Shown: piece by piece, positions 32,648-64,000 of the stretch | Numbering within the stretch: position 1 is the stretch's first letter | Layout: every line of letters starts with the position of its first letter | Assembly: GCA_033439255.1 (NCBI GenBank) | Contig: CM065882.1 | Location: 620,001-684,000 of the forward strand | DNA length: 64,000 nucleotides | From: Hericium rajendrae | Taxonomy: Eukaryota; Basidiomycota; Agaricomycetes; Russulales; Hericiaceae | Direction of reading: 5' to 3' | Translations under genes and position numbers: made by a program | The notes under the pieces: generated by a model | Told to the model about the DNA's origin: nothing | Database searches by the model: none | The model's input: the letters and a program-made list of their open reading frames with translations, nothing else

Positions 32648-35600
32648 ATGCCGCCGCGGAAAGGCTCGCTGCATAAGGCCGTCCGCATCACTGGCGTAGG
32701 GCATGCGGACAGTAGTATTCAGGCGAGGATAGAGGCGGAGAAGGCGAGCTGGCTGAGGGAACGGCAGGCGCAGCTTGACGGCATCTTGGACCACCATGAT
32801 GATTTGGTAAGTGGCAATTCCGTGGATATCCTTGGATGACCTTTGACCAGGGGACGCTAGATACGAGAGGTGTTTCATCTGGAAAAGTTCAGGACATTGG
32901 TTTCGTACGATCCAAAGGTGAGTCCAGGCAGTGTTCTTGACTACGGACAGCGTTGACTCTGCCTGCAGACGGCCAAGGAGGACAACTCGGACGTATATAA
33001 AGAGGTATGTGCCTTTTCTTCTCTGTACCATCGTTCACTAACGTGCCACTACAGTACAAATCCAACTACGACCTGATTAGCAATGCCTCTACCTCCGCCG
33101 GTCCTGCACGTCGCACGACGCGCCGCGCGCATAATGAGCGCATCGAGCTGCTCAAAGGTCCCGTCGCGGGTCCTTCCACACCCTCACCGCCTGCCGCATC
33201 TCGAAAACCTAAAAACACGCGCTCGCAGCAGGATTCACCGATCTGGGGCATCCTGTCCGACGCGAAAGGAAAGGGCAAAGAGAAGGAAAGACCTGACGGT
33301 GACTTCATGACACCCGACATGAAGGGAAAACGAGCTTCAAAATCCGGGCCGCGCATCCAGAGTGCCAACGTCCCAGAGCCCATGTCTGCGCCTCCGTCAA
33401 AGGCGCGCCGCACTTCCTCTGCCTACGTCGACATGCCGCGCGATACGCCCCGCAAGCGCCGCAAAACCGACATGCAGCCCCCACTGCCGACTCCTGCCGG
33501 TCCGGATACTTCACCCCTCCACCCTCCACCATCACCAGTGACCTCCCACCTCCCCCGCATTCGTCTTGTGTTCCGCCCACCTCCGCCGACATACACCAAT
33601 CCAATCCAGAAGCCCGTGCCTGCGCGCTTCGAGAAGTCGCTGACCGCCGCACTACTCGACGCGCAAGACGTCGATGTGGCCGCGCTCGAGGGTGCGGTGC
33701 GGAAGGAGGCGCGCTTTCGCGAGAAGGTGCATGCATTGCGCGCACAGGGCCGGCTGCAACTGCGCGCGGACCTCGCGCTCTCCGCGGATCGCGAGGTGCC
33801 AACGCGGGAACATACGCGCGGCACGGACGTGTGGGACCATCTCCTTCAGGACGTACGGAACTTCCGACGTGAGGTGCAGGGTGCGAAAGTCGCCGGGACG
33901 ATTGTACGCGGGGTGAAAGGCTATTGGGAGAATTTCGCTGTGAAGGAGGGCAAGGCACGGCGGGACGAGGAGAAGCGCCTGCGCGCTTTGGCGAAGGAGA
34001 CAGTGAAGATGGTTGTGAATGAGTGGAAGAAGGCGGTCTACGTGCGTTCTTCAACATTTTCCCTGATATTGATGCTGACATGATCGGATAGCATGTTCGG
34101 GAGCAAGAGAGGCAGCGGCGGGAGGCTGAGGAGAAGAAGAGAGGGCGTGAGCATCTTGATGCCATTCTTGACCAGTCAGGACAGATCCTCGAGACGCAGC
34201 ATTTGGATCTGAGCAGAGCCGGCCGATCATGCAGTCGCTCTAGCAGTGTCTCAGCAACGATTCGGGAGTGGGGTGAGATAGATGAGGTGGACGAAGAAGG
34301 GGACGAAGAGAAAGATGAGGACATCGTTCAGGAGGCTAGTGAAGAGCTAGAGCTGGAGGACACGGACGTGGATCTGGCAAGTACAGAAAACGCAGACCTC
34401 ACCGAAGACCTTTCAGAGGAGGAAGGTGAGGGAACCTCGGCACTTGCGCTGCTAGGGGATGCGACGACGGCCACCTGGGATCAGACACCACGCACGTCCC
34501 GAACCCCAACCTCCGATGTAGCAATGCTGGACGACTTCGCTGCCGAAGGCGTTTCCATCGACCACGAACCTTCCATGCAAGTGGACGATATGTTTTCTCC
34601 GACGTCGGAACTCGTTACGACGCCCTCCAGCGATCTCTTGCTTGCACAATCGACCACTGCAGCAGTCACGGAGACCGCGTCTCAGCATTCATTCTCTTCA
34701 AGCGTCACGCATGGCCCATCGCTGAATGGGGTCGACAGCCGGAATATTCATCGCTCCTACGATGAGGACGACCATACTCCAATCAACAAGGAGGATGGGA
34801 TCCACACGATCTCAGTCTCTACTTCCTTCAAGACCCATATCACGACCGAATCAGCTGCGGATATGGCGGATCATTCTGATTTTCTCCAGAAAACGCTGGT
34901 TACACCCAAATCGTCGCCTATATTTCATGAGCAGATATTTCACCAGGACGAGATTGCGGTGGACACTAGTACTGGGAAAGCGTATCAATCCTTTGTTCCG
35001 ATGTCCCCAACGCAGCCCCTCACTTCTGCCCTACCATCCATGGCCAATGGACTGTATACTCATGACATTCGTATTGTGGCCGGCGCAGCTTCGACAGACA
35101 ACGTACCGCCAACTTCTGCTACCAAGACCGAGGAAGCACCGATCGAACAGGAAGAGGAGATTGAGGAAGTTGAGGAAGCATCTACCATCCCTGCTTACCT
35201 CAGACCATATGCCGTAGCTCCTGTCGAGTGGGATCCCGGAAGGAGGGTGACGGCACCCGCCTTGCTTCGAGGTGTACTCCGACCATATCAGCAAGCCGGC
35301 CTAGAATGGCTCGCGAGTCTGCACGTGAGCAATTTGAACGGCATTCTCGCGGACGAGATGGGTCTCGGGTGAGCTCTGTCCTTCTGATTATATTCGCCTT
35401 CTTTTTACTGACTAGGTAACCTGATAGCAAAACTATCCAAACCATTGCTTTGCTTGCCCACCTTGCATGCGATAGAGGCATATGGGGCCCGCACTTGATC
35501 ATCGTGCCGACCAGTGTCCTGCTCAATTGGGAGATGGAGTTTAAGAAGTTTCTTCCCGGCTTCAAAGTGCTCGCATACCATGGGACAACCATACGCCGCA

Positions 35601-37935
35601 AGGAGTTACGCAAAGGCTGGAATGACAAGTTCCACTTCAACGTCTGCATCACTTCCTATACACTCGCGAGCCGGGATGCCCATATATTCAAGCGCAAGCC
35701 ATGGTACTATATGATCCTCGATGAAGCGCATATGATCAAGAACTTCAAGTCACAGAGGTGGAACATCTTGCTGATGTTCAGGTCTTTCAGACGGTTGCTC
35801 CTTACTGGGACGCCTCTGCAAAATAACTTGACGGAGTTGTGGGCGCTGCTGCAATTCCTTATGTCTGGCACGAACTTTGCCAATCTAAAGGAATTTGGCG
35901 AATGGTTTGCGAGTAAGTTAACCTTGGTTCCTTATGATTATGCGATCTGATGATTTTTTCGTTCAGATCCTTTGGAGAAGGCCGTCGAGATGGGCACTCA
36001 GCTCGATGAGGAAACACAGCAACGAGTCTCCAAGCTGCATCAAGTTCTCCGGCCTTACCTCCTTCGCCGGCTGAAGCGTGATGTAGAGAAGGAACTTCCC
36101 AGCAAGTTTGAGCACCTGGTCCTATGTCCACTCTCCAAGCGACAACGCTTTCTCTACGACGAGTTTATGTCTCGCGCGCAGACACGGAACGACCTGCAAT
36201 CTGGTGTATACCAGAAGATCGCGAACATCCTCATGCAGCTGCGGAAAGTATGCAACCACCCAAATCTCTTCGAGGTCCGACCAATCGTGACATCTTTTGC
36301 AATGCAACGATCTGCTGTTGCCGATTATGAGATCAAGGAGCTGCTTGTTCGTCGACAGCTATTGAAGGAAGAGGGCGAAGAAAGAGTGAATTTGGACGTG
36401 CTTGGACTGCAGTTCATCGGACAGCAAAATACCTCGCTCATTGCCGCTATGGAGACTCGACGTCTAGATGGGACTTCGCAGTTGCCGTTCATCTCGGAGC
36501 TGCCAGGTGAACCGCCTCCCTACGATTCTCGTACGATTGCCGGATATCGCAAGTTTCGAGCATACCAGCAGCGCGCAGCGGTCATCGCGCGCTGGACCCA
36601 CATTGGATACCTCAATCGCCTGCGCTGCAACCGGGAGCAGCCCCTGTACAGCAGCGAGCTTCTCACAACACTGCGTCAATTTTCTCGCCCTTTGCTTCCT
36701 ATAACTGCTGTCGATCGCTCGGTAGGCTACCTCGACACCGTGCATCGCGTTTCCGCCACTGTGAAGTCCTATGAGACCCGCACAGCAGAAATGGCACCTC
36801 TCGTCGATAAGTTCGCATGCATCACGCCCGCTGTCGTCGCGCGAGACATCCCACACCTAGCTCTTGCTGGCTTCGAGGACGCCCTTGCCGAGTCTTCACC
36901 AGAGGATTTGGATGCTGTCTTGCACCGAGCAAGTGTCAAACTGCAGATCGCCTTCCCTGATCCGTCGCTGCTGCAATACGACTGCGGCAAGCTACAAGAG
37001 CTTGCGCGCCTCCTACGCGAACGCAAGGCTGGTGGACACCGCGTGCTGATCTTCACGCAGATGACGCGCATCCTCGATATCCTTGAGATCTTCTTGAACT
37101 TCCATGGCTATCTGTATCTGCGTCTGGACGGAGCGACGAAGATTGAGGATAGGCAGTACATCACGGAGCGGTTCAATTCGGATCCACGAGTTTTCTGCTT
37201 TATCGCCTCGTCAAGATCGGGTGGTGTTGGTATCAAGTAAGCTCTGGTTTGTCGATCATCTAGAACATATTCTGACTTTCCATTACAGCTTGACTGGAGC
37301 AGATACAGTGATATTCTATGATAGCGACTTCAATCCCCAGATGGACAGGCAGTGTGAAGATCGGTGAGTTGCTATCACCCTGATCATTTGCTTCTGGCTT
37401 ATTCAATTCAATGAACACCAGTGCCCACCGCATCGGTCAGATCCGTGACGTCCATATCTACCGTTTCGTCTCGCAACACACCGTCGAAGAAGCCATGCTC
37501 CGCAAAGCAAACCAGAAACGCTCGCTCGACGACCTCGTCATCCAGAAGGGCGAGTTCGACTGGCGCTCGTTATTTGGCGATGACGTCGAGAAGGTGGGCG
37601 GCGATGGCCTCACGAAGGCGCTTGAGGAGTTTGAGGACACGGAGGACACGCTCGCTGCACGGATCGCTGCAAAGGAGGAGGGCGAGCTCGAGGGCGCCGA
37701 TCAGGCTGACTTCGAGGAGGACGGGCGGACAAGTGCGCAACAGAGAGACAGTGTGCAGGATCTGCTGGCGACCCCGGTTGAAGAGGCTGTTGAGCCAGAG
37801 GCCGAGGAGCAGGAAGCTGCAGAGGACGAAGGCGGGGCGGAGGCAGAGGCAGAGGAGGAAGGTGGGACGACGGTGGAGTACATGCTTTCTTTCGTGCGGT
37901 ACGATTATGAGTTCTTCCGCGATTGGCGTTTATGA
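32648..37935 (+). CDS. SWR1: SWR1, Snf2-family ATPase of the H2A.Z-exchanging SWR1 complex
   Basis: Nine exons: 32648-32806, 32861-32917, 32969-33004, 33055-34041, 34092-35368, 35428-35912, 35967-37236, 37289-37363, 37422-37935; 4860 nt, 1619 residues. The N terminus ([14 protein letters not shown]) leads to a low-complexity region, then an HSA domain (about 350-430: [18 protein letters not shown]...), which binds actin/Arp subunits, and a long acidic stretch that can bind H2A.Z-H2B. ATPase lobe 1: [40 protein letters not shown]. The two lobes are separated by the long insertion typical of SWR1/INO80 enzymes. Lobe 2: [68 protein letters not shown]-like motif [15 protein letters not shown] follows. 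It replaces H2A by H2A.Z in nucleosomes. No defect seen. Confidence 0.95.
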
Positions 37936-56323: not shown

Positions 56324-56555
56324 GCGAGTTCGCTGATAGGCGCGTGTTCTTCGACCTTGGGGAGGTATGCGGCAAAAAAAGGGATTGAGTTATCGTTTTG
56401 TGAACCTAGGCGTTGGGTAAGTGGCCCTTGTATATCGATGAGTTCAGGATTGATCAGCCGAGAAATAGTGGATAGGATATCCTGTCCGGGTGGACCATTT
56501 CCCTCGTGAATGGAGGATTGAGACTTTATACCGTATGAATACAGGAAACTAATGT
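56324..56555. other. Intergenic DNA between the F-box-like gene and the putative LTR
   Basis: No gene. The left limit of the gypsy element must lie near its right end. Confidence 0.4.
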
Positions 56556-56561
56556 TAGAAT

Positions 56562-56724
56562 CTAGACAACCCGATTAGACTCAGTCGTAGAGAAGGATAA
56601 GAACGACTTTATTATGTACCTAGACAACCCGATTAGACTATCGAGAAGAGTACATAAGTTTCTAGCATAGCGGGAAAGAAATAAGAAAAGCTCACCTCAG
56701 TCGTAGAGAAGGATAAGAACGACT
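56562..56724 (-). repeat. 47-bp duplication in the LTR, one copy with and one without a 58-bp intron-like insert
   Basis: Copy B, 56562-56608, equals copy A, 56620-56637 plus 56696-56724, at all 47 positions. The segment missing from B, 56638-56695, begins GTGAGC and ends CGATAG on the minus strand. Both copies begin AGTCGTTC on the minus strand. Confidence 0.95.
56638..56695 (-). other. 58-bp GT-AG intron-like segment in the LTR leader
   Basis: GTGAGC donor after CTGAG, a pyrimidine-rich body, a possible branch-point region near GCTAGAAAC, and acceptor CGATAG. Its exact absence from the adjacent copy supports real splicing. Confidence 0.7.
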
Positions 56725-56749
56725 GAGGGAGGGGAATCCGAACGGAAAG

Positions 56750-56755
56750 TATATA
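56750..56755 (-). promoter_or_regulatory. TATA box of the LTR
   Basis: TATATA lies 26-31 bp upstream of AGTCGTTC at 56724 on the minus strand, the standard TATA-to-start distance, so RNA probably starts there. Confidence 0.6.
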
Positions 56756-56953
56756 AGAGAAAGAGGCTGGCGGGCAGACATGAACATGACATCATAAGCA
56801 GGCAGAGTCCGTCTGAGAAAGGCGAGAGCATAACCGAATCGAGAGAAGGAGAGACAGTTCGCGTCGTCCGGCGGACAACGCATTTCCATGTGATACTTCC
56901 AACACTCCTCCTCGCAGGGGGACGCGAAGTCTCCTCCTGAACTCGAGGACTAA

Positions 56954-56990: not shown

Positions 56991-58051
56991 CCCAAGGCCG
57001 CAAGCGGCAATCTCCTCCTCAACGTGCGGTGATGTGTGGACCCTGGGAATGGAGGCGGCAGCCAAAACCAAAACCAACAGAGTACCGGGGGGTGCGAGGG
57101 GACCAAGTATCTCAAGAGGGGAGCGCCGAGACGTGTAGCTGACGGGTGATCGTACTACGGGTAGGGGAGCAAGGCCGCGGAGGGCGAGCTTGCTGCGCGC
57201 GGGCGACTTCCGACACGGCTCTGCTAGGGACGATGACGGTACGACAAGACTCACGGGTCTTAGGTGATACGGCTTGTAGATAACGGCGCGGCGACGAGTA
57301 CGACGAATATGATGAGCGACACGAGAAAGTGAGAAGAGCTACGTCTGAGACGTGCTTAGAGACTGGGGTGAGAACGTCAAACGGCGGGCTTTGTGAGATC
57401 TGAGCTCTGAGGGGAAAAAGGCAGATTCCGTTCTGATTCTCTAAGTCAGTAGCTACGGTACAAATGGGCAAGGCCGCCTCTGGCGGCCCGGCGTGACTCC
57501 CTACGACAACCTCCTGCTGACCGACCCAATCTCCAATTCCTTCCTGATCCTGCCTGCTCCGGGTCCCTTGGCGAGTGGAGTCATTGCGACTCGGCCCGTG
57601 CAGGGCAGAGGGCGTGCGCGTGGTACGAACGAATCAAAGGTGCCGCCTTACAACGTCGCCCGGGGCGTGCGTCGGGAACGGCGGGCTCGTCGAGCTGGAA
57701 TGGCTGGGATGACGTCAGTAGCGCACTGTCGCGGGCGCCGCTCGTGATCCGGGGGCGTGTGGGCGTTCGAGGGCGCGTTGATTGAGCCGGCTGGTTCTCT
57801 GGGCGCGCTTCTGTTCCTGTGCCGCTGACTCGTCCGGCCGGTTGATCTCCTGCCCGTTCGGTGCATCGGACCACGGGACGCCGGCTTTAGTCCGACCCGG
57901 TCGGTCCCGAACCCGTGGGGGCGCTTGTCCTGTGCGGGGAGCAACGTCGCGGTGGGCGGACTTGGTGCGGCTGAGGTGAAGTGAAGCGGGACGGGCAAGG
58001 AGGCGGGGAGTGGGCAATGCCGTTGCAAGGCGCGCTAAAGGGCGCATCATT

Positions 58052-58087
58052 CTCCCCCTAACTGAAAATTTAGACTCTCCGTAGTCT
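58052..58087 (-). other. Polypurine tract with upstream hairpin, copy 2 (next to the LTR)
   Basis: Minus strand: hairpin AGACT-ACGGAG-AGTCT, then AAATTTTCAGTTAGGGGGAG. The purine tract lies directly before the presumed LTR start, where plus-strand DNA synthesis is primed. Confidence 0.6.
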
Positions 58088-58175
58088 AATCTGGAGCCCC
58101 ACGAGGGATTCGGGCGCGGACATGCGTGAAGCCGATTGTGCGACGGCGCCCTGGGCGGGTGTGCTGCAGCGAGCC

Positions 58176-58183
58176 TATAAAAG
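58176..58183 (+). promoter_or_regulatory. TATA box of the antisense accessory genes
   Basis: TATAAAAG 71 bp before the ATG at 58247, with a pyrimidine-rich stretch between. A clear Pol II core promoter on the strand opposite to pol. Confidence 0.65.
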
Positions 58184-58246
58184 GCATCTACGCCCCGGGA
58201 GGGCACTCAACTCCGAGCCATCTTCGCGCCCAGCAGTCTTGTCCCG

Positions 58247-58999
58247 ATGAACACCTTCCTTGATCAAGTCTTCCGCCAGAAAGTGACCTGGCTCCTTTCG
58301 GAGCGCTCATGGACCCCGCTCGATGCGTCCACGCTGTCCAAGCGCGACGCGGTCATCCGGGAACGCGAGATCTGGGGTCGAGACCTCATGGTCGCCGTAG
58401 TACGTCCAAGCTCGTTTGCGGCGTTGTTGCGTACCTGCTAATTCTCGGGACTCCAGAAGGACTACCAGCGCTACGCTGGCGCCATCGACGTGGGTCTGCA
58501 GGATGACATCACGCAGATGTTGGACCACTTCCTGTCCGAGGCCGCCCGCGCGTCCGGGAAAGTCCGCCGTTGGCTCGACTGGGGTTGGTACCTCATGCCG
58601 TCGCTGAAGCGCGAGTGGCTCGATTCCCTGGAGCACCATCAGGTAGATGCCGCGGACCGCCTGTCCGTGGCCGAGTCCGAGCTGTGGGAGACGTGCCGCA
58701 CGGTGGCCCTGGAGGAAATCGATATCACCTGCCGCAAGTACCAGTATGACGTCATAGACGCGGAGGCCTGCAAGCGGGCTCTGGAGCCGTTGTTCGCCAG
58801 GCTGCATCAAGCGGTCTCCGCGCCGGAGTTGCCATGGGAAGACACCGGGGGAGAGGTGAGCGAGGATCCGCATGAGCTAGAGACAATGCACCGCCTAGTG
58901 GCGGAGGCACTCGACTTGGCCGAGCTGCTGCGGCTTCCGCCCTACCGAGCAGACGAGGAGGGCGCCTGTGACAGGGTCGCGGGAGGGGCCGCGGATTAG
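58247..58999 (+). CDS. Accessory protein A of the gypsy-type element, opposite strand to pol
   Basis: Exons 58247-58399 and 58457-58999; 696 nt, 231 residues; the intron is 57 bp with GTACGT and CTCCAG ends. It starts MNTFLDQVFRQKVTWLL and is predicted largely alpha-helical and acidic, with many Trp in the middle (RRWLDWGWYLMPSLKREWL). No signal peptide, zinc motif or known domain that I recognise. It lies between pol and the presumed 3' LTR, reads against pol, and has its own TATA box. It could be element cargo or a host gene trapped inside the element; the shared flanking purine tracts favour cargo. Confidence 0.6.
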
Positions 59000-59304
59000 T
59001 ATAGTACGATGTACGCCGGTGGCGAGCATGCCTCGCCGCTCAATTGAACTATTCTGGTGCCAAGGCGCACTATGCTGTCTGTGGGACTTGCCCGTCGTTG
59101 AATAGGCTTCCTGTTCGCGAGACACGGCTGAAATGACAAATGGGCGCCAATCGGGGCCTGAGATCCTGATTGAGTCCGAAGCGACAACTGTTTTGGCCGG
59201 GTGCCCGCGTCGCGGGCTTCTGCGCGAAGCTGCGAAGCTACCTGTACGCGGGGGCTTCTCCGGAGGCAATTCGCCAGGCGCTTCCGTCTTGTCGTGGAGT
59301 CCTT
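59000..59304. other. Spacer between the two accessory genes
   Basis: About 300 bp with no clear TATA box. The frame of the second gene stays open upstream of its ATG to about 59170, so the true start may be earlier. Confidence 0.4.
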
Positions 59305-61092
59305 ATGAACACTGAGTTGCGAGGCGACTCGCTCCTCAGCACCTCGTCTCCCATGGCTCGCGCGTACGTCGACAACCGCCCCAAGGGTATTCAGGCTCTC
59401 GAACGCCTCTTCGGGTCAGGCCACCCGCGCGAAGGCGACCCCGGCAATGTCTGGGCAGAGTGGATCACCCAGGTTGCCAGTTGCTTGGTGAGTCCACCGG
59501 CGCATGTTTTGCTTCCGTCCCCGCTGACCACCACTCCTGACAGGGCCCTCTCTTGAGGTCGAATTCGACCCACCTCGACAACGATTTCTTCCGTCGCGGG
59601 ATCGCCAACGCCCGTGTAGTCTTCAGCCGCCTCGAGCTGAAGTCCGACCGCAAGTGGGGTGCCAAGGTGCTCGACGTCTTCGAGCCCCCCGAAGACCCGA
59701 CCGAGACAGAGGACCGGGAGACCGACGAGCTCGAGGAGAGCGACGACGACACCCCGCTCGCGGCCGCGACTCCCAAGGGCAAGGGGCCCGCGCAGGTCGC
59801 GCCTGTTTCAACGTGCAAGACAGGGCCCCCTAAGGGCAAAAGGGCGGCCGCGCCAACCAACGAGACCCCGCAGGCCTCGTCTTCCACGCGCACCAGGGCT
59901 CCGTCGCTGCCCCGCTCGCAGACCGGTGAGCAAGACCGCCTCGAAGTCGCCGCCCTGTTGACCGCCACCGGTGTCGTAGACGCGTCCGCCGAGCAGGACG
60001 TAGACCCGGCTCTGGACGCTCCAGTGTCCGCCGCGACTCACGCGGCCAAGCGCAAGGCCGTAGCACCTGTCGAGGAGGAGGAGGCGGGGGACGAGATTGT
60101 CGAAGTGCCCCTGCCAGCGAAGAGGGCGCGTACGGGGCCGGCTGGCGCCGTCGCTGCGAACGAGGGGAAAGGGAAGGCCAAGGCCAAGGAGCCCGATGAG
60201 AAGTGGGGTCCGGTAAGTACCCATCTCCTCCACCTGTGCTCGACGCTAATTTTCTGTTTGCGTAGTGCCTGCCCGAGCAGTGGTGCACCGCGTGCATCAA
60301 CGAGGGCAAGGAGTGCCTCCGCCGGCTCCTCCCTGCGAAGAACGTCGGGCGCGCGAAGCACGAGCGATGCTGCGAGTGCAGCGAGAAGCGCACTTCCTGC
60401 CTCGCCTGTGTCGACCTCAACGCGCATCTGACGCGGATGGGTGCGCCCGTCGTGGATCCCGTTGCCACGCGCGCCGCCGCGGCTTCTTCTGGTCACGACC
60501 AGGTGGCCGACTCCCCCGTGGTCTTGCCGGGGATACCAGACTCCGCGGGCGCGCTCCGTAAGTCGCTACCCCACTGTTGCTACGCGTTTGCTGACCGGGT
60601 GACCGTCCTACAGCCCCGTTTGAGGCGCTCGCATCTCGCCTTCCATTCCCGGTCTCCGACGGCTTCCGTCCAGGGGCCTGGGACTACGTCGACCCCTACG
60701 CGTGCATTCCGCGCGATTCGTCGCTCCGCCGCACCCTGCTCGCGGAGACCGAGCGGCAGCTCGTCGGTTTGTACCTCCAACGCATGTCGAACCACGGCCA
60801 GATCCTCGCCGTCGAGAGGCTCGTCACGGCCCTCTATACGGGCACGCGCGGCGAGTATATCACGGCGGAGGCGGATGAAGAGGGCAAGGTCGCCAAGGAC
60901 GAGCCTGCGGACGCCGCTAGCAACGCAGAGGAGGAGGCCGCGGCGAGTCCCACCGCAGGTCCGTCTTCGCGCCCGCTCGCGAGGGAGTCCCCCGTTCCTT
61001 CGGTCGAGGGTCCTGGTGAGCCGTTGGAGCTGACGGCGGCTCCTGTCGCTGAGGTGGCCGCGTCAGAGGAAGTCGTGCCGGCTGACTCCTGA
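59305..61092 (+). CDS. Accessory protein B of the gypsy-type element: Cys-rich, nuclear-type protein
   Basis: Exons 59305-59487, 59544-60212, 60266-60557, 60614-61092; 1623 nt, 540 residues, all joins in frame. The N-terminal part (MNTELRGDSLLST...WAEWITQVASCLGPLL, then NDFFRRGIANARVVFSRLEL) looks folded. A long acidic/Pro/Ala-rich linker follows, with basic clusters (AAKRKAV, PAKRARTG) that could be nuclear localisation signals. Exon 3 carries a Cys cluster: CLPEQWCTACINEGKEC, then CCECSEKRTSCLAC, nine cysteines in pairs as in zinc-binding modules. A short helical block (DSSLRRTLLAETERQLVGLY) and an acidic tail end the protein. Possibly a DNA- or chromatin-binding factor; function unknown. 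Hairpins follow the stop at about 61115-61220. Confidence 0.6.
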
Positions 61093-61526
61093 CGAGCGGG
61101 GCTGTCGCTTTGCGCGGGGAGGGAAAGACCCTCCCCTTTTAAATTTGCTATCTTGTTTTGTCGTCGTGGAAGTTGTCGCATACGTTTTGTGTTGCCCGGG
61201 CCTTAGGCCCGGCTTTTTACTATACGTCGCTCGTAATCGGGACGCCGAGTCCTACTGTATCGTTGCTCCTGCCGAATGGGAGCCCATCTTGAAGTCTGAA
61301 CCTGTGTGAATCTAAAGGGGAAAACCAGAAAGAAACAAAGTCGCCCCAGGCGATCTTGTCAGGGCCTATACGATTGGTGAAGGTAACATCTGAGTGGTGG
61401 ATGGTATGAAGATCGCCCAAGGCGAGTTTGTCGAAATGCAAGTAACAATAGATTTATTTCGTGCGTGTGGGTATTGGTGGGGCGTCCAAGGTCGTCGACA
61501 TGCTTGACTGACGGCCTCTACTCCCC
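61093..61526. other. Spacer between accessory gene B and pol 3' end
   Basis: Two strong inverted repeats follow the accessory gene: GGGAGGG...CCCTCCC near 61118-61137 and GCCCGGGCC...GGCCCGGC near 61194-61213, each followed by a T-run on the plus strand. No coding sequence seen. Confidence 0.5.
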
Positions 61527-61555
61527 CTAACTGAAAAATGGACTGCCCTCAGTCC
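61521..61555 (-). other. Polypurine tract with upstream hairpin, copy 1 (at the pol stop)
   Basis: Minus strand: hairpin GGACT-GAGGGC-AGTCC, then ATTTTTCAGTTAGGGGGAG. The hairpin overlaps the last codons of pol and the TAG stop is part of the shared AGTTAGGGGGAG. Confidence 0.65.
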
Positions 61556-64000
61556 TCCTCGCTAGTCGAGTGGTCAGAGGACGCCGCGGGCGAACTTGGT
61601 CGGGACCTGTCGGGTCGCCGAGGTCGCTGCCGGCGGTTTCGTCATCCGGGTCTGTGACGGTGGAGGTGAGTAAACGTTCAAACTGCTCGATGCCGACATC
61701 GAGGAAATCTTCCAATGGCGGGTGATCGAGGATGGTACGGGCGAAATACGGGACAACGCGGTAGGCTGCGGTGGGCCGGTCGAATAACGTACCGTCGAGC
61801 TCACACAAGAGGTAAGCACGCCCCTTGTTGCGGCCGAGGACGAGGTACGGGCCTAGGTAGCGCGGTTTGGTCTTCCGGGAATGGCTGGTGCTGTACGCGG
61901 AATTGCGGACAAGTACCAGTTCGCCGCGGTGAAAGTCAAAGTCGCGGATCGTGCGTTCATGTTCCAGTTCGAATTTTCGTGCTGCCTGGAGGCAGGCCTC
62001 GTAGACGCGGCTGTGAAGTCGCTGAAGGTCCTTTTGACGCTTCTGCAGGGCAAGAGCGTGGGAGGCGATCAGGTCGGTAGAGGACAAGATCGCCTCGGGC
62101 GGCGGTAGCAGGTAGGTGGCTTCCGCGATATCGAGCGGCATCAGGGGGTGCATACCGGTTACCGCGAAGTATGGGGAACAGCCCATGCGCCGGCGGATGG
62201 TGATACGTTCCGACCAGAACACGGAGTGGGCTGAGTAGCTCCAATTCTTCTCCACGCCGTCGGCGGCCTTGATCAGGGCTTGGCGTACGTCAAAGTGTGC
62301 ACGCTCAGCGATGCCGTTGGCTCTCGAGTTATAGCCCGAGATGCGGATATGCCGGACGTGGTACTTCTTTTCCAGCTGCGTCAAGGCTTTAACGAACGGG
62401 CCGCCGTTGTCGGACACGATTTCAGTGAGCATACCCCAGCGGCACAAGATGTCTTGGTAAATCCAATCAGCAATGTGCTCGCTGCGTTCTTTGCGCAGCA
62501 TGCGCCATTCGGGAAAGTGGGACACCGAGCAGCGCCCTTGGACCAGGTATTGCATATTGTTGGATTTCGGCAGGTGCATGGTATCCATGTACATTTTCGC
62601 AAATAAAGGTGCGGGCACCGCAACCGTTGGCGGGATAAGAACTTTGCGGATCTGGAACGCTTGGCAAATATGGCACGAACGGACGAACCAAGCGACATCC
62701 GAGCCCATAAAAGGCCACCAGAAACGGACCGCGAGCAGGAGGGCGGTTGCGGCGACGCCACGGTGTCCCGCGGACTCGTGAGTCTCAACGAGAGCAGCCC
62801 AGCGGCCGGTCGGCGGGAGCACTAGTTTGTGCGCATTTGTCTTGTCGCGCTTCCAGAGGCGGCCACCTTTCATGAAGAAGTCGCGGCAATAACGCAGGAA
62901 GCGAGCGTATTCCCGGTCCGTCAGTCCGTCAGGGCGGATCGGATGGAGCAGGAAGTCGGTGACGGCGCGCAGTCGGGCATCCGTGAGGAGGGATTTTTCG
63001 GACCTTGGAACGTCTGCATAGGACGCCAAGTGGTCTTGCGGAGGAGGCGCGACAAAATCGCCGGCGGCGACATTGGTCGAGATGAGCTGTTGGGCCAGCT
63101 GAGGGCGGTCGTGGCCGATCCGAGGCACATTTATTATGTGTACAAAGCCATAAGCACGGTCGACCCAGTTGTCGAAGTCGTCGTCGGGTTCGGGCGCATC
63201 ATCGTCCTGGGGGCGGCGCCGGGAGAGGCCATCCGGCCCATGCTTCTCGCCAGGGACGTGGACCAGGGTAAATTGAAACATGAGGATGCCGACGATCCAC
63301 CGGTTCATGGACGCACTAGGGGCGAGATCGGGATTATTCAGCATGCCGGATATATAACGGGCGTCGACTTCGATAATCAGGTTGCGAACGCCAATGAGCC
63401 AGAGTTTGAGTGCGCGAAGGCTCCGGTATAGGCCATATAATTCCAGCTTTGGTTGGGAGAAGCGCGCCTCACGGTCGTTCAGGGCGATAGAGCCGAAGCG
63501 AGCATACCGGCGAACTTTGGGGTCGTCCACATCCTGTTGACAGAGTAGGTAACCGATGGCAATATAGGAGGTGTCGACGCCCAGGATCACTGAGGCGGGA
63601 GACTCGTAATCTATCGCGCGCAGGGCGGGTGATGCGAGTAGCGCTTGCTTAAGGTCTTCCTGCGCAGCCAACTGGTCTGGGCCGAACTCGAATGGGGTGT
63701 CCTTGCGCGTAAGCCGTACCAGATGGTGAGCACGTTTTGCAAAGTTCTTGATGAAGATGCGGGCCACGCCAATGGTCCCGAGGAAAGCGCGAACGTCCGA
63801 GAGGTCGGTACAAGGTTGCCAGTTGCTGACCTTGGCGAGGTTGCTGAGTTCTGGCAAACGGCCCGCCGGCGTGCATCTATGGCCGACGACGATGATTTCC
63901 GGCGCGCAAAGGACAGTCTTTTTCCCTGAGAAGGTACCACCGCAATATTTCATGCATTGGACGACACGGTTCGCGCCCTGGAAGTGTTCCCAGACAAAGC
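61527..64000 (-). CDS. Ty3/gypsy-type Pol: end of RT, RNase H, integrase (5' part outside the window)
   Basis: The frame is open from the right edge to the TAG at 61527 (over 820 residues). Order: RT thumb/connection (VVQCMKYCGGTFSGKKT..., DLSDVRAFLGTIGVARIFI), RNase H (VILGVDTSYIAIGYLLCQQ, ARFSQPKLELYGLYRSLRAL, LIIEVDARYISGML, HVPGEKHGPDGLSRR), zinc-binding integrase N terminus (HESAGHRG...CHIC), and the integrase core with the DDE set: Asp in MYMDTMHLP, Asp in EIVSDNGGPFV, Glu in NGIAERAHFDVR. A C-terminal GPY-like segment KPRYLGPYLVLGRN follows. RT before integrase defines the Ty3/gypsy class. No stop or frameshift, so the element may be young. Gag, protease and the 5' LTR should lie to the right of the window. 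Confidence 0.92.
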   Translation of the reverse strand, partial: FVWEHFQGANRVVQCMKYCGGTFSGKKTVLCAPEIIVVGHRCTPAGRLPELSNLAKVSNWQPCTDLSDVRAFLGTIGVARIFIKNFAKRAHHLVRLTRKDTPFEFGPDQLAAQEDLKQALLASPALRAIDYESPASVILGVDTSYIAIGYLLCQQDVDDPKVRRYARFGSIALNDREARFSQPKLELYGLYRSLRALKLWLIGVRNLIIEVDARYISGMLNNPDLAPSASMNRWIVGILMFQFTLVHVPGEKHGPDGLSRRRPQDDDAPEPDDDFDNWVDRAYGFVHIINVPRIGHDRPQLAQQLISTNVAAGDFVAPPPQDHLASYADVPRSEKSLLTDARLRAVTDFLLHPIRPDGLTDREYARFLRYCRDFFMKGGRLWKRDKTNAHKLVLPPTGRWAALVETHESAGHRGVAATALLLAVRFWWPFMGSDVAWFVRSCHICQAFQIRKVLIPPTVAVPAPLFAKMYMDTMHLPKSNNMQYLVQGRCSVSHFPEWRMLRKERSEHIADWIYQDILCRWGMLTEIVSDNGGPFVKALTQLEKKYHVRHIRISGYNSRANGIAERAHFDVRQALIKAADGVEKNWSYSAHSVFWSERITIRRRMGCSPYFAVTGMHPLMPLDIAEATYLLPPPEAILSSTDLIASHALALQKRQKDLQRLHSRVYEACLQAARKFELEHERTIRDFDFHRGELVLVRNSAYSTSHSRKTKPRYLGPYLVLGRNKGRAYLLCELDGTLFDRPTAAYRVVPYFARTILDHPPLEDFLDVGIEQFERLLTSTVTDPDDETAGSDLGDPTGPDQVRPRRPLTTRLARRTEGSPFFS

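Follow-up and report, generated by a model that had tools for sequence, protein, structure and literature searches.

A split leader and its intron-less copy recur in LTRs of Ty1/copia elements from Hericium rajendrae

Introduction

How does an LTR (long terminal repeat) retrotransposon come to carry its leader twice in a row, once split by an intron-like segment and once without it? The question is raised by a locus in the window, the whole stretch of 64,000 nucleotides of Hericium rajendrae DNA that was analysed here. It touches two constraints on such elements: reverse transcription normally erases introns, and the RNA of an LTR element must not terminate in the 5′ LTR. A first-pass annotation had read the locus as a rare direct trace, either of spliced element RNA that was reverse-transcribed and joined next to its unspliced template, for example by strand transfer, or of a 58-bp intron that one of two tandem repeats had recently gained. 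We compare here the window LTR with its partner and with other LTRs of the same genome.

Organisation of the window LTR

On the minus strand, the repeat starts at 56724 (copy 1) and again at 56608 (copy 2), and the two copies are identical at 47 of 47 positions. Their alignment consists of 29 shared nucleotides, 58 nucleotides that are present only in copy 1 and a further 18 shared nucleotides. This confirms the 47-bp repeat, the 58-bp interruption of its upstream copy and the extent from 56724 to 56562 that the first-pass annotation had described. The repeat lies in an LTR of 352 bp (56553..56904, minus strand). A 100% identical partner is found on the same contig outside the window, with its end at window coordinate 74556, and the target site duplication (TSD) TTAGT is present at both outer ends, at 56552-56548 next to the window LTR. 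The window LTR is therefore the 3′ LTR of one Ty1/copia insertion. The length of this insertion, about 18 kb, is due to a nested element with 1,020-bp LTRs.

All features of the window LTR are on the minus strand and are described in the direction of the presumed RNA. A TATATA (56750..56755), which may serve the RNA start, begins 31 nt ahead of the presumed start site. E1 of copy 1 (29 nt, 56696..56724) begins at the repeat boundary, with the presumed RNA 5′ end at 56724, and could form a hairpin AGUCGU..ACGACU. It is followed by the 58-nt segment that copy 2 lacks, the putative intron 1 (56638..56695), which has splice signals at its ends (GTGAGC..CGATAG) and a CTNAY motif whose A is located 18 nt from the intron end, at about 56655. 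E2 of copy 1 (18 nt, 56620..56637) has a GT directly after it, the beginning of an 11-nt spacer s that starts with GTACAT (56609..56619). An AATAAA (56613-56608) with a possible role in polyadenylation spans the end of the spacer and the first base of copy 2. In copy 2, E1′ (56580..56608, 29 of 29 positions identical to E1) is joined without intron 1 to E2′ (56562..56579, 18 of 18 identical to E2). Spacer and copy 2 together form a candidate intron 2 of 58 nt (56562..56619, GTACAT..GTCTAG, CTAAT motif near the end), a weaker candidate than intron 1, whose removal would join E2 to U5. U5 comprises 9 nt (ATTCTAACA, 56553..56561), and in the 5′ LTR the primer binding site (PBS) GGTTATGGGCCC follows directly after it.

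The split-repeat score of this LTR is 47, while ten such LTRs put through 200 dinucleotide shuffles give at most 18, which rules out a chance origin of the split repeat. When both strands of the 64-kb window were scanned, no such layout was found elsewhere; the two overlapping matches obtained are both inside the window LTR. The nested element is of Ty3/gypsy type and stands outside the system described here. It spans window positions 57030-64000 and beyond, near the 3′ end of the copia element; its LTR in the window (57030..58049, minus strand) has a 99.4% identical partner beyond the window. This LTR is the sole gypsy control, and no split-leader layout was detected in it (best score 9, in seven sub-windows that stop short of the last ~90 bases). 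In another part of the window (33007-37240, plus strand), frames matching SNF2-related and Helicase_C domains probably belong to a chromatin-remodelling ATPase gene with introns.

Element class and primer binding site

The reverse transcriptase (RT) of the window element (C5:689935-690675) matches PF07727 (RVT_2) with 221.7 bits at a cut-off of 31.6. Two matching LTRs and a short TSD are present, and further LTR pairs are found in other loci. The copia frames are single and long with the RT in their later part, and an integrase motif was recognised by eye only. The PBS adjoins the LTR end and matches the anticodon arm of tRNA-Met(CAT); its complement lies in genes called tRNA-Met(CAT) at all four sites scanned, of six in total. 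In its RVT_2 RT, LTR pairs, short TSD and PBS, the element resembles Ty1/copia elements such as Drosophila copia and yeast Ty5, which are primed by half of the initiator tRNA-Met. It differs from them in the region that we would assign to R. Instead of a simple unbroken U3-R-U5 order, this region is split by GT..AG segments, so that R would contain one intron or two, and it is followed by its own copy without introns. Penelope-like elements are a different class, as the RT found here is of the RVT_2 type and the ends are true LTRs with a PBS.

Recurrence of the layout in the genome

A DNA search with the window LTR region against its own genome gave 26 matches. Among 20 aligned LTR copies, the intron-like segment is located in copy 1, and subfamily-specific letters are mirrored in copy 2. 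A search with the RT yielded 65 matches, from which 20 regions were taken, with a preference for long frames and spread. In 18 of these 20 copia loci we find the layout U3-[E1/GT intron AG/E2/GT spacer][E1′E2′]-U5-PBS; it was not detected in the remaining two scanned, L044 and L062. In L061 it is present only in a truncated LTR, and the scan also picked low-complexity repeats in L049, L055 and L061. The layout is spread over eight LTR families (F1 to F8, with the window LTR in F1), one of which, F6, has a simpler single-intron form. Split-repeat scores are 24-52 in layout-bearing LTRs against the shuffle maximum of 18. Among 16 further LTR entries, L012 and L013 fall below the cut-off and L053b is truncated. 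The follow-up that the first-pass annotation had suggested, a comparison with the 5′ LTR and with other copies in the genome, yielded an identical 5′ LTR and a recurrent layout.

RT identity between families is 38-50%, except for F3/F4 (80%) and F7/F8 (62%). The leader sequences are largely unrelated across families, with some letters common to F3/F4 and to F7/F8, and seven of the eight share the position of intron 1. Occurrence in eight LTR families rules out an assembly artefact or a local duplication. A rare accident in one lineage, namely a recent intron gain or a single reverse-transcription event, would fit the window alone, but confronted with 18 of 20 loci and with families whose RTs are mostly so divergent, its probability is close to nil. 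The recent gain of the 58-bp segment in one tandem repeat, as considered in the first-pass annotation, is ruled out by the RT divergence among layout-bearing families and by the common place of the intron. No relatives were found in the viral and genome contigs searched outside this genome, a set without kin of the host.

The PBS pattern GGTTATGGGCCCTG has 84 matches in the genome, six of which are tRNA sites. The sample drawn from it comprises 61 upstream ends: 60 of the 78 non-tRNA sites together with L019, whose PBS differs at its end. Of these PBS-anchored 5′ LTR ends, 48 carry the layout (14 of them related passenger copies, discussed below), and it is absent in nine, eight from one short-LTR family and L101. 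L049, L089 and L106 gave simple-repeat matches only and L109 is partial; the other LTR of L049 carries the layout. The 5′ LTRs of L049 (near 1,300) and L109 are cut by a CTATGG/GCTATAG-rich stretch ending ..TTTTCCAGATG, inserted in the leader region. The short-LTR family (L064, L066, L068, L069, L073, L079, L080 and L096; TGTTAGATTCGG..TTTTCAACA) has the same tRNA-Met PBS and is without leader duplication. None of the 65 copia RT matches lies within 6 kb downstream of its members, and it is perhaps a non-autonomous (TRIM-like) element.

Splice signals and RNA start

Intron 1 is 51-64 nt long and shows the hallmarks of a spliceosomal intron: GT..AG ends, a fungal length and a branch motif. In 26 of the 27 LTRs parsed with the gap fixed to begin at GT, the A of a CTNAY motif lies at −12 to −19 (in the unconstrained parse, the gap falls within a 2-nt slide, from a shared AG, that includes GT..AG). 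The exception is L016, where the motif occurs only at −9. The candidate intron 2, which the first-pass annotation had missed, starts with the GT directly after copy-1 E2, is 53-71 nt long and has CTNAY at −13 to −20 in 19 of 30 LTRs, with no motif at the usual distance in the other 11. It is needed for the reading, since the removal of both introns leaves exactly copy 2 plus U5. A second intron (E2/GTACAT..GTCTAG) is probable, and we infer that both segments are spliced introns, for which the intron-less copy 2 speaks indirectly.

F6 offers a simpler case. It has no E2, CAG forms the end of its E1, and a single 53-nt intron would extend from there to the CAG of E1′ (E1/GTGYGY..E1′CAG/TCTC). 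In the remaining families, the last three letters of E1′ are GAG, a poor splice acceptor. This may be the reason why these families carry an E2, which ends in CAG, TAG or AAG.

The first base of copy 2, the A of (C)AGT, also opens a short hairpin. The two arms of this hairpin change together among eight family representatives (36 of 40 pairs; 4 of 40,320 arm re-pairings are as good), with F6 as the exception (2 of 5 pairs). The position at the first base of the hairpin, together with the TATATA 31 nt upstream, supports without proving the RNA start at about 56724 that the first-pass annotation had placed there. The AATAAA is not kept in most of the other families.

Correspondence between the two copies of one LTR

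Within each family, we measured the mean edit distance from copy 1 to its own copy 2 and to copy 2 of the other LTRs. In F1, it is 1.8 for the own copy (0, 0, 5, 2, 1, 0, 0, 0, 7 and 3 in ten LTRs) versus 10.2 for the others, and 1 of 200,000 random permutations reaches the observed sum. The values are 0.75 versus 13.2 in F3 (n = 4; 1 of 24 permutations), 0.67 versus 10.2 in F4 (n = 3; 1 of 6 permutations), 1.5 versus 6.0 in F2, 0 versus 6 in F7 and 2.5 versus 3.5 in F8 (n = 2 each). F5, with 0.5 versus 0.83 (n = 4; 12 of 24 permutations), has no power in this comparison. The larger differences in L015, L018, L028 and L016 (5, 7, 3 and 2, respectively) are read as decay of older LTRs after insertion.

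Could selection keep the copies equal? The segments might be unspliced spacers that bind protein or RNA, with selection acting on a paired or bound element, and the conserved E1 hairpin does imply selection on E1. Such selection would not, however, match unconserved loop bases and E2 bases within each LTR, nor would it set GT..AG and a branch motif at the segment ends, and we regard this reading as very improbable indeed.

A few LTRs have copies that differ. In L054 (F8), E2 and E2′ differ at five sites in both LTRs, while E1 equals E1′ in the 5′ LTR. As the mismatch is present in both LTRs, E2′ was not renewed from E2 in the last cycle or cycles of that insertion, and renewal of E2 is not obligatory. 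E2/E2′ differences in F5 (L050, L100 and L107) are recurrent changes at one CpG (CG to TG or CA), and in L050 and L100 the change in the 5′ LTR is absent from the 3′ LTR. Because of this site and this discord between LTRs, mutation after insertion is the simpler reading, and we dropped these differences as evidence against renewal. The changes in the three LTRs also hint at methylation-driven decay.

Gene conversion at the DNA level between tandem copies, with the intron segment as an old insertion, would also keep two nearby copies alike. In each family, it would have to work on tracts of 15-29 nt to either side of the intron without ever displacing the intron itself. Genome-wide in F5, all 35 copy-2 junctions are exactly 126 nt from a copy-1 E1/GT match; three E1/GT matches (at most one mismatch) are without a copy-2 match, and nine more with three mismatches form part of a more diverged set. 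Gene conversion also has to face copies outside their own cycle. The 14 passenger ends are PBS-anchored F4 ends; DNA beyond the LTR start is common to 10 of them (L065, L071, L077, L082, L084, L090, L091, L094, L095 and L099) and the others are truncated within the LTR. This shared outside DNA indicates that a larger repeat carried the group along in its amplification. The same two E2/E2′ differences occur in all 14, and E1 differs from E1′ in at least 9, which argues that the two copies diverge when the element's own cycle is not at work. With the constant F5 spacing and these drifting copies, we rejected gene conversion, which seems very unlikely to us.

Proposed mechanism

In our view, the observations are quite probably best explained by an R that is spliced at the RNA 5′ end and unspliced at the 3′ end, so that the first strand transfer overwrites copy 2. 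This explanation starts from what can be read in the DNA, namely the layout, its recurrence, the GT..AG boundaries and copy 2 tracking its own copy 1, and it would add splicing, the RNA start and end, the unspliced 3′ end and the strand transfer. Transcription would begin at E1. At the RNA 5′ end, two small introns would be removed (E1/i1/E2/i2/U5) to give E1-E2-U5-PBS, whereas the 3′ end would stay unspliced as E1-i1-E2-spacer and terminate in or after copy 2. Retention of intron 1 near the 3′ end could result from its distance from the cap or from competition with 3′-end formation. The tRNA-primed minus-strand strong-stop cDNA would be antisense to the spliced leader E1-E2-U5, and its 3′ end, complementary to E1, would pair with E1′ near the RNA 3′ end. 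Synthesis would then continue via spacer, E2, i1, E1 and U3. Landing of the strong-stop cDNA on E1′ would restore exactly U3-E1-i1-E2-s-[E1E2]-U5. The new LTR would obtain its intron-bearing copy 1 from the old 3′ LTR, and its copy 2 would be synthesised anew from the spliced form of copy 1; in every cycle, the introns would be kept and copy 2 would become the spliced image of copy 1.

Other states of the RNA would leave other traces. RNA spliced at intron 1 only would yield either an additional, third copy or a copy 1 without the intron. In F5 we found no example of these, and no two of its 35 junctions genome-wide are close together. Unspliced RNA would keep the layout without renewing copy 2. 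Given how many copia loci and families share the layout, and given the match of copy 2 to its own copy 1, the process seems to recur as an inherent part of the element's cycle. The strand transfer proposed in the first-pass annotation is therefore retained as a probable mechanism, while its view of the locus as the rare trace of a single event is not.

A single long intron, with its donor after E1 and its acceptor at the end of E1′, would yield an identical spliced leader. Only E1′ would be renewed in each cycle, and copy-1 E2 would be a relic. This form would be obligatory for F6, which has no E2, and it accounts for L054, where E1 equals E1′ and E2 is unlike E2′. For the other families we consider it unlikely: it leaves unexplained the tracking of E2′ and E2 in F1, F3, F4, F7, L053 and L060 as well as the AG and GT that bound copy-1 E2, and E1′ outside F6 ends in GAG.

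Splicing within R could also bring a benefit. As the AATAAA (56613-56608) would lie inside intron 2 of the 5′ LTR, splicing could shield the 5′ LTR from early RNA ending, but most other families have not kept this signal. Speculatively, the advantage of the system is that the 3′-end signals of the 5′ LTR are intronic and hence removed.

Comparison with known systems and implications

In HTLV-1 and foamy viruses, a splice donor is located in R; the spliced RNA serves as mRNA and the unspliced RNA as genome. The elements described here would share with them a splice site within R, but differ in that the RNA spliced in its 5′ R is the proposed template. As in the standard first strand transfer of retroviruses and LTR elements, strong-stop cDNA would jump from the 5′ R to the 3′ R; unlike there, only the 5′ R would be spliced, and the intron-less copy 2 would act as the acceptor. 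A lariat was once proposed for Ty1 RNA, a proposal that was reportedly doubted later. It likewise connects a reaction of the splicing type with the first strand transfer at R, through a 2′-5′ branch joining the RNA ends, where we propose a spliced R (PMC1266399). Penelope-like elements also transpose with their introns kept, for which the authors favour antisense or unspliced templates. They have another RT class and pseudo-LTRs, and the accessible portion of that report describes no spliced copy beside an unspliced one (PMC3846280). Among the literature consulted, these two systems, the intron-keeping Penelope-like elements (PMC3846280) and the Ty1 lariat proposal (PMC1266399), are the nearest. 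In the open-access library searched, we found no precedent for an LTR that combines a spliced R with an intron-less copy of it.

The chances are about even, in our estimate, that these elements represent a class of LTR retrotransposons that needs the spliceosome. In such a class, splicing of R at the 5′ end but not at the 3′ end would tell the two LTRs of the RNA apart, strip the end-forming signals from the 5′ side and supply the end for strand transfer, with introns inherited through reverse transcription. If true, intron loss and RNA ending in the 5′ LTR would be solved together by the splicing of R along with an intron-less copy that renews itself. Copy 2 would be a genomic record of spliced RNA, so that RNA starts, exon joins and the strand-transfer point could be read from DNA, and the first strand transfer of such elements would thereby become testable by sequence alone. 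It would also represent concerted evolution within one LTR, driven by reverse transcription.
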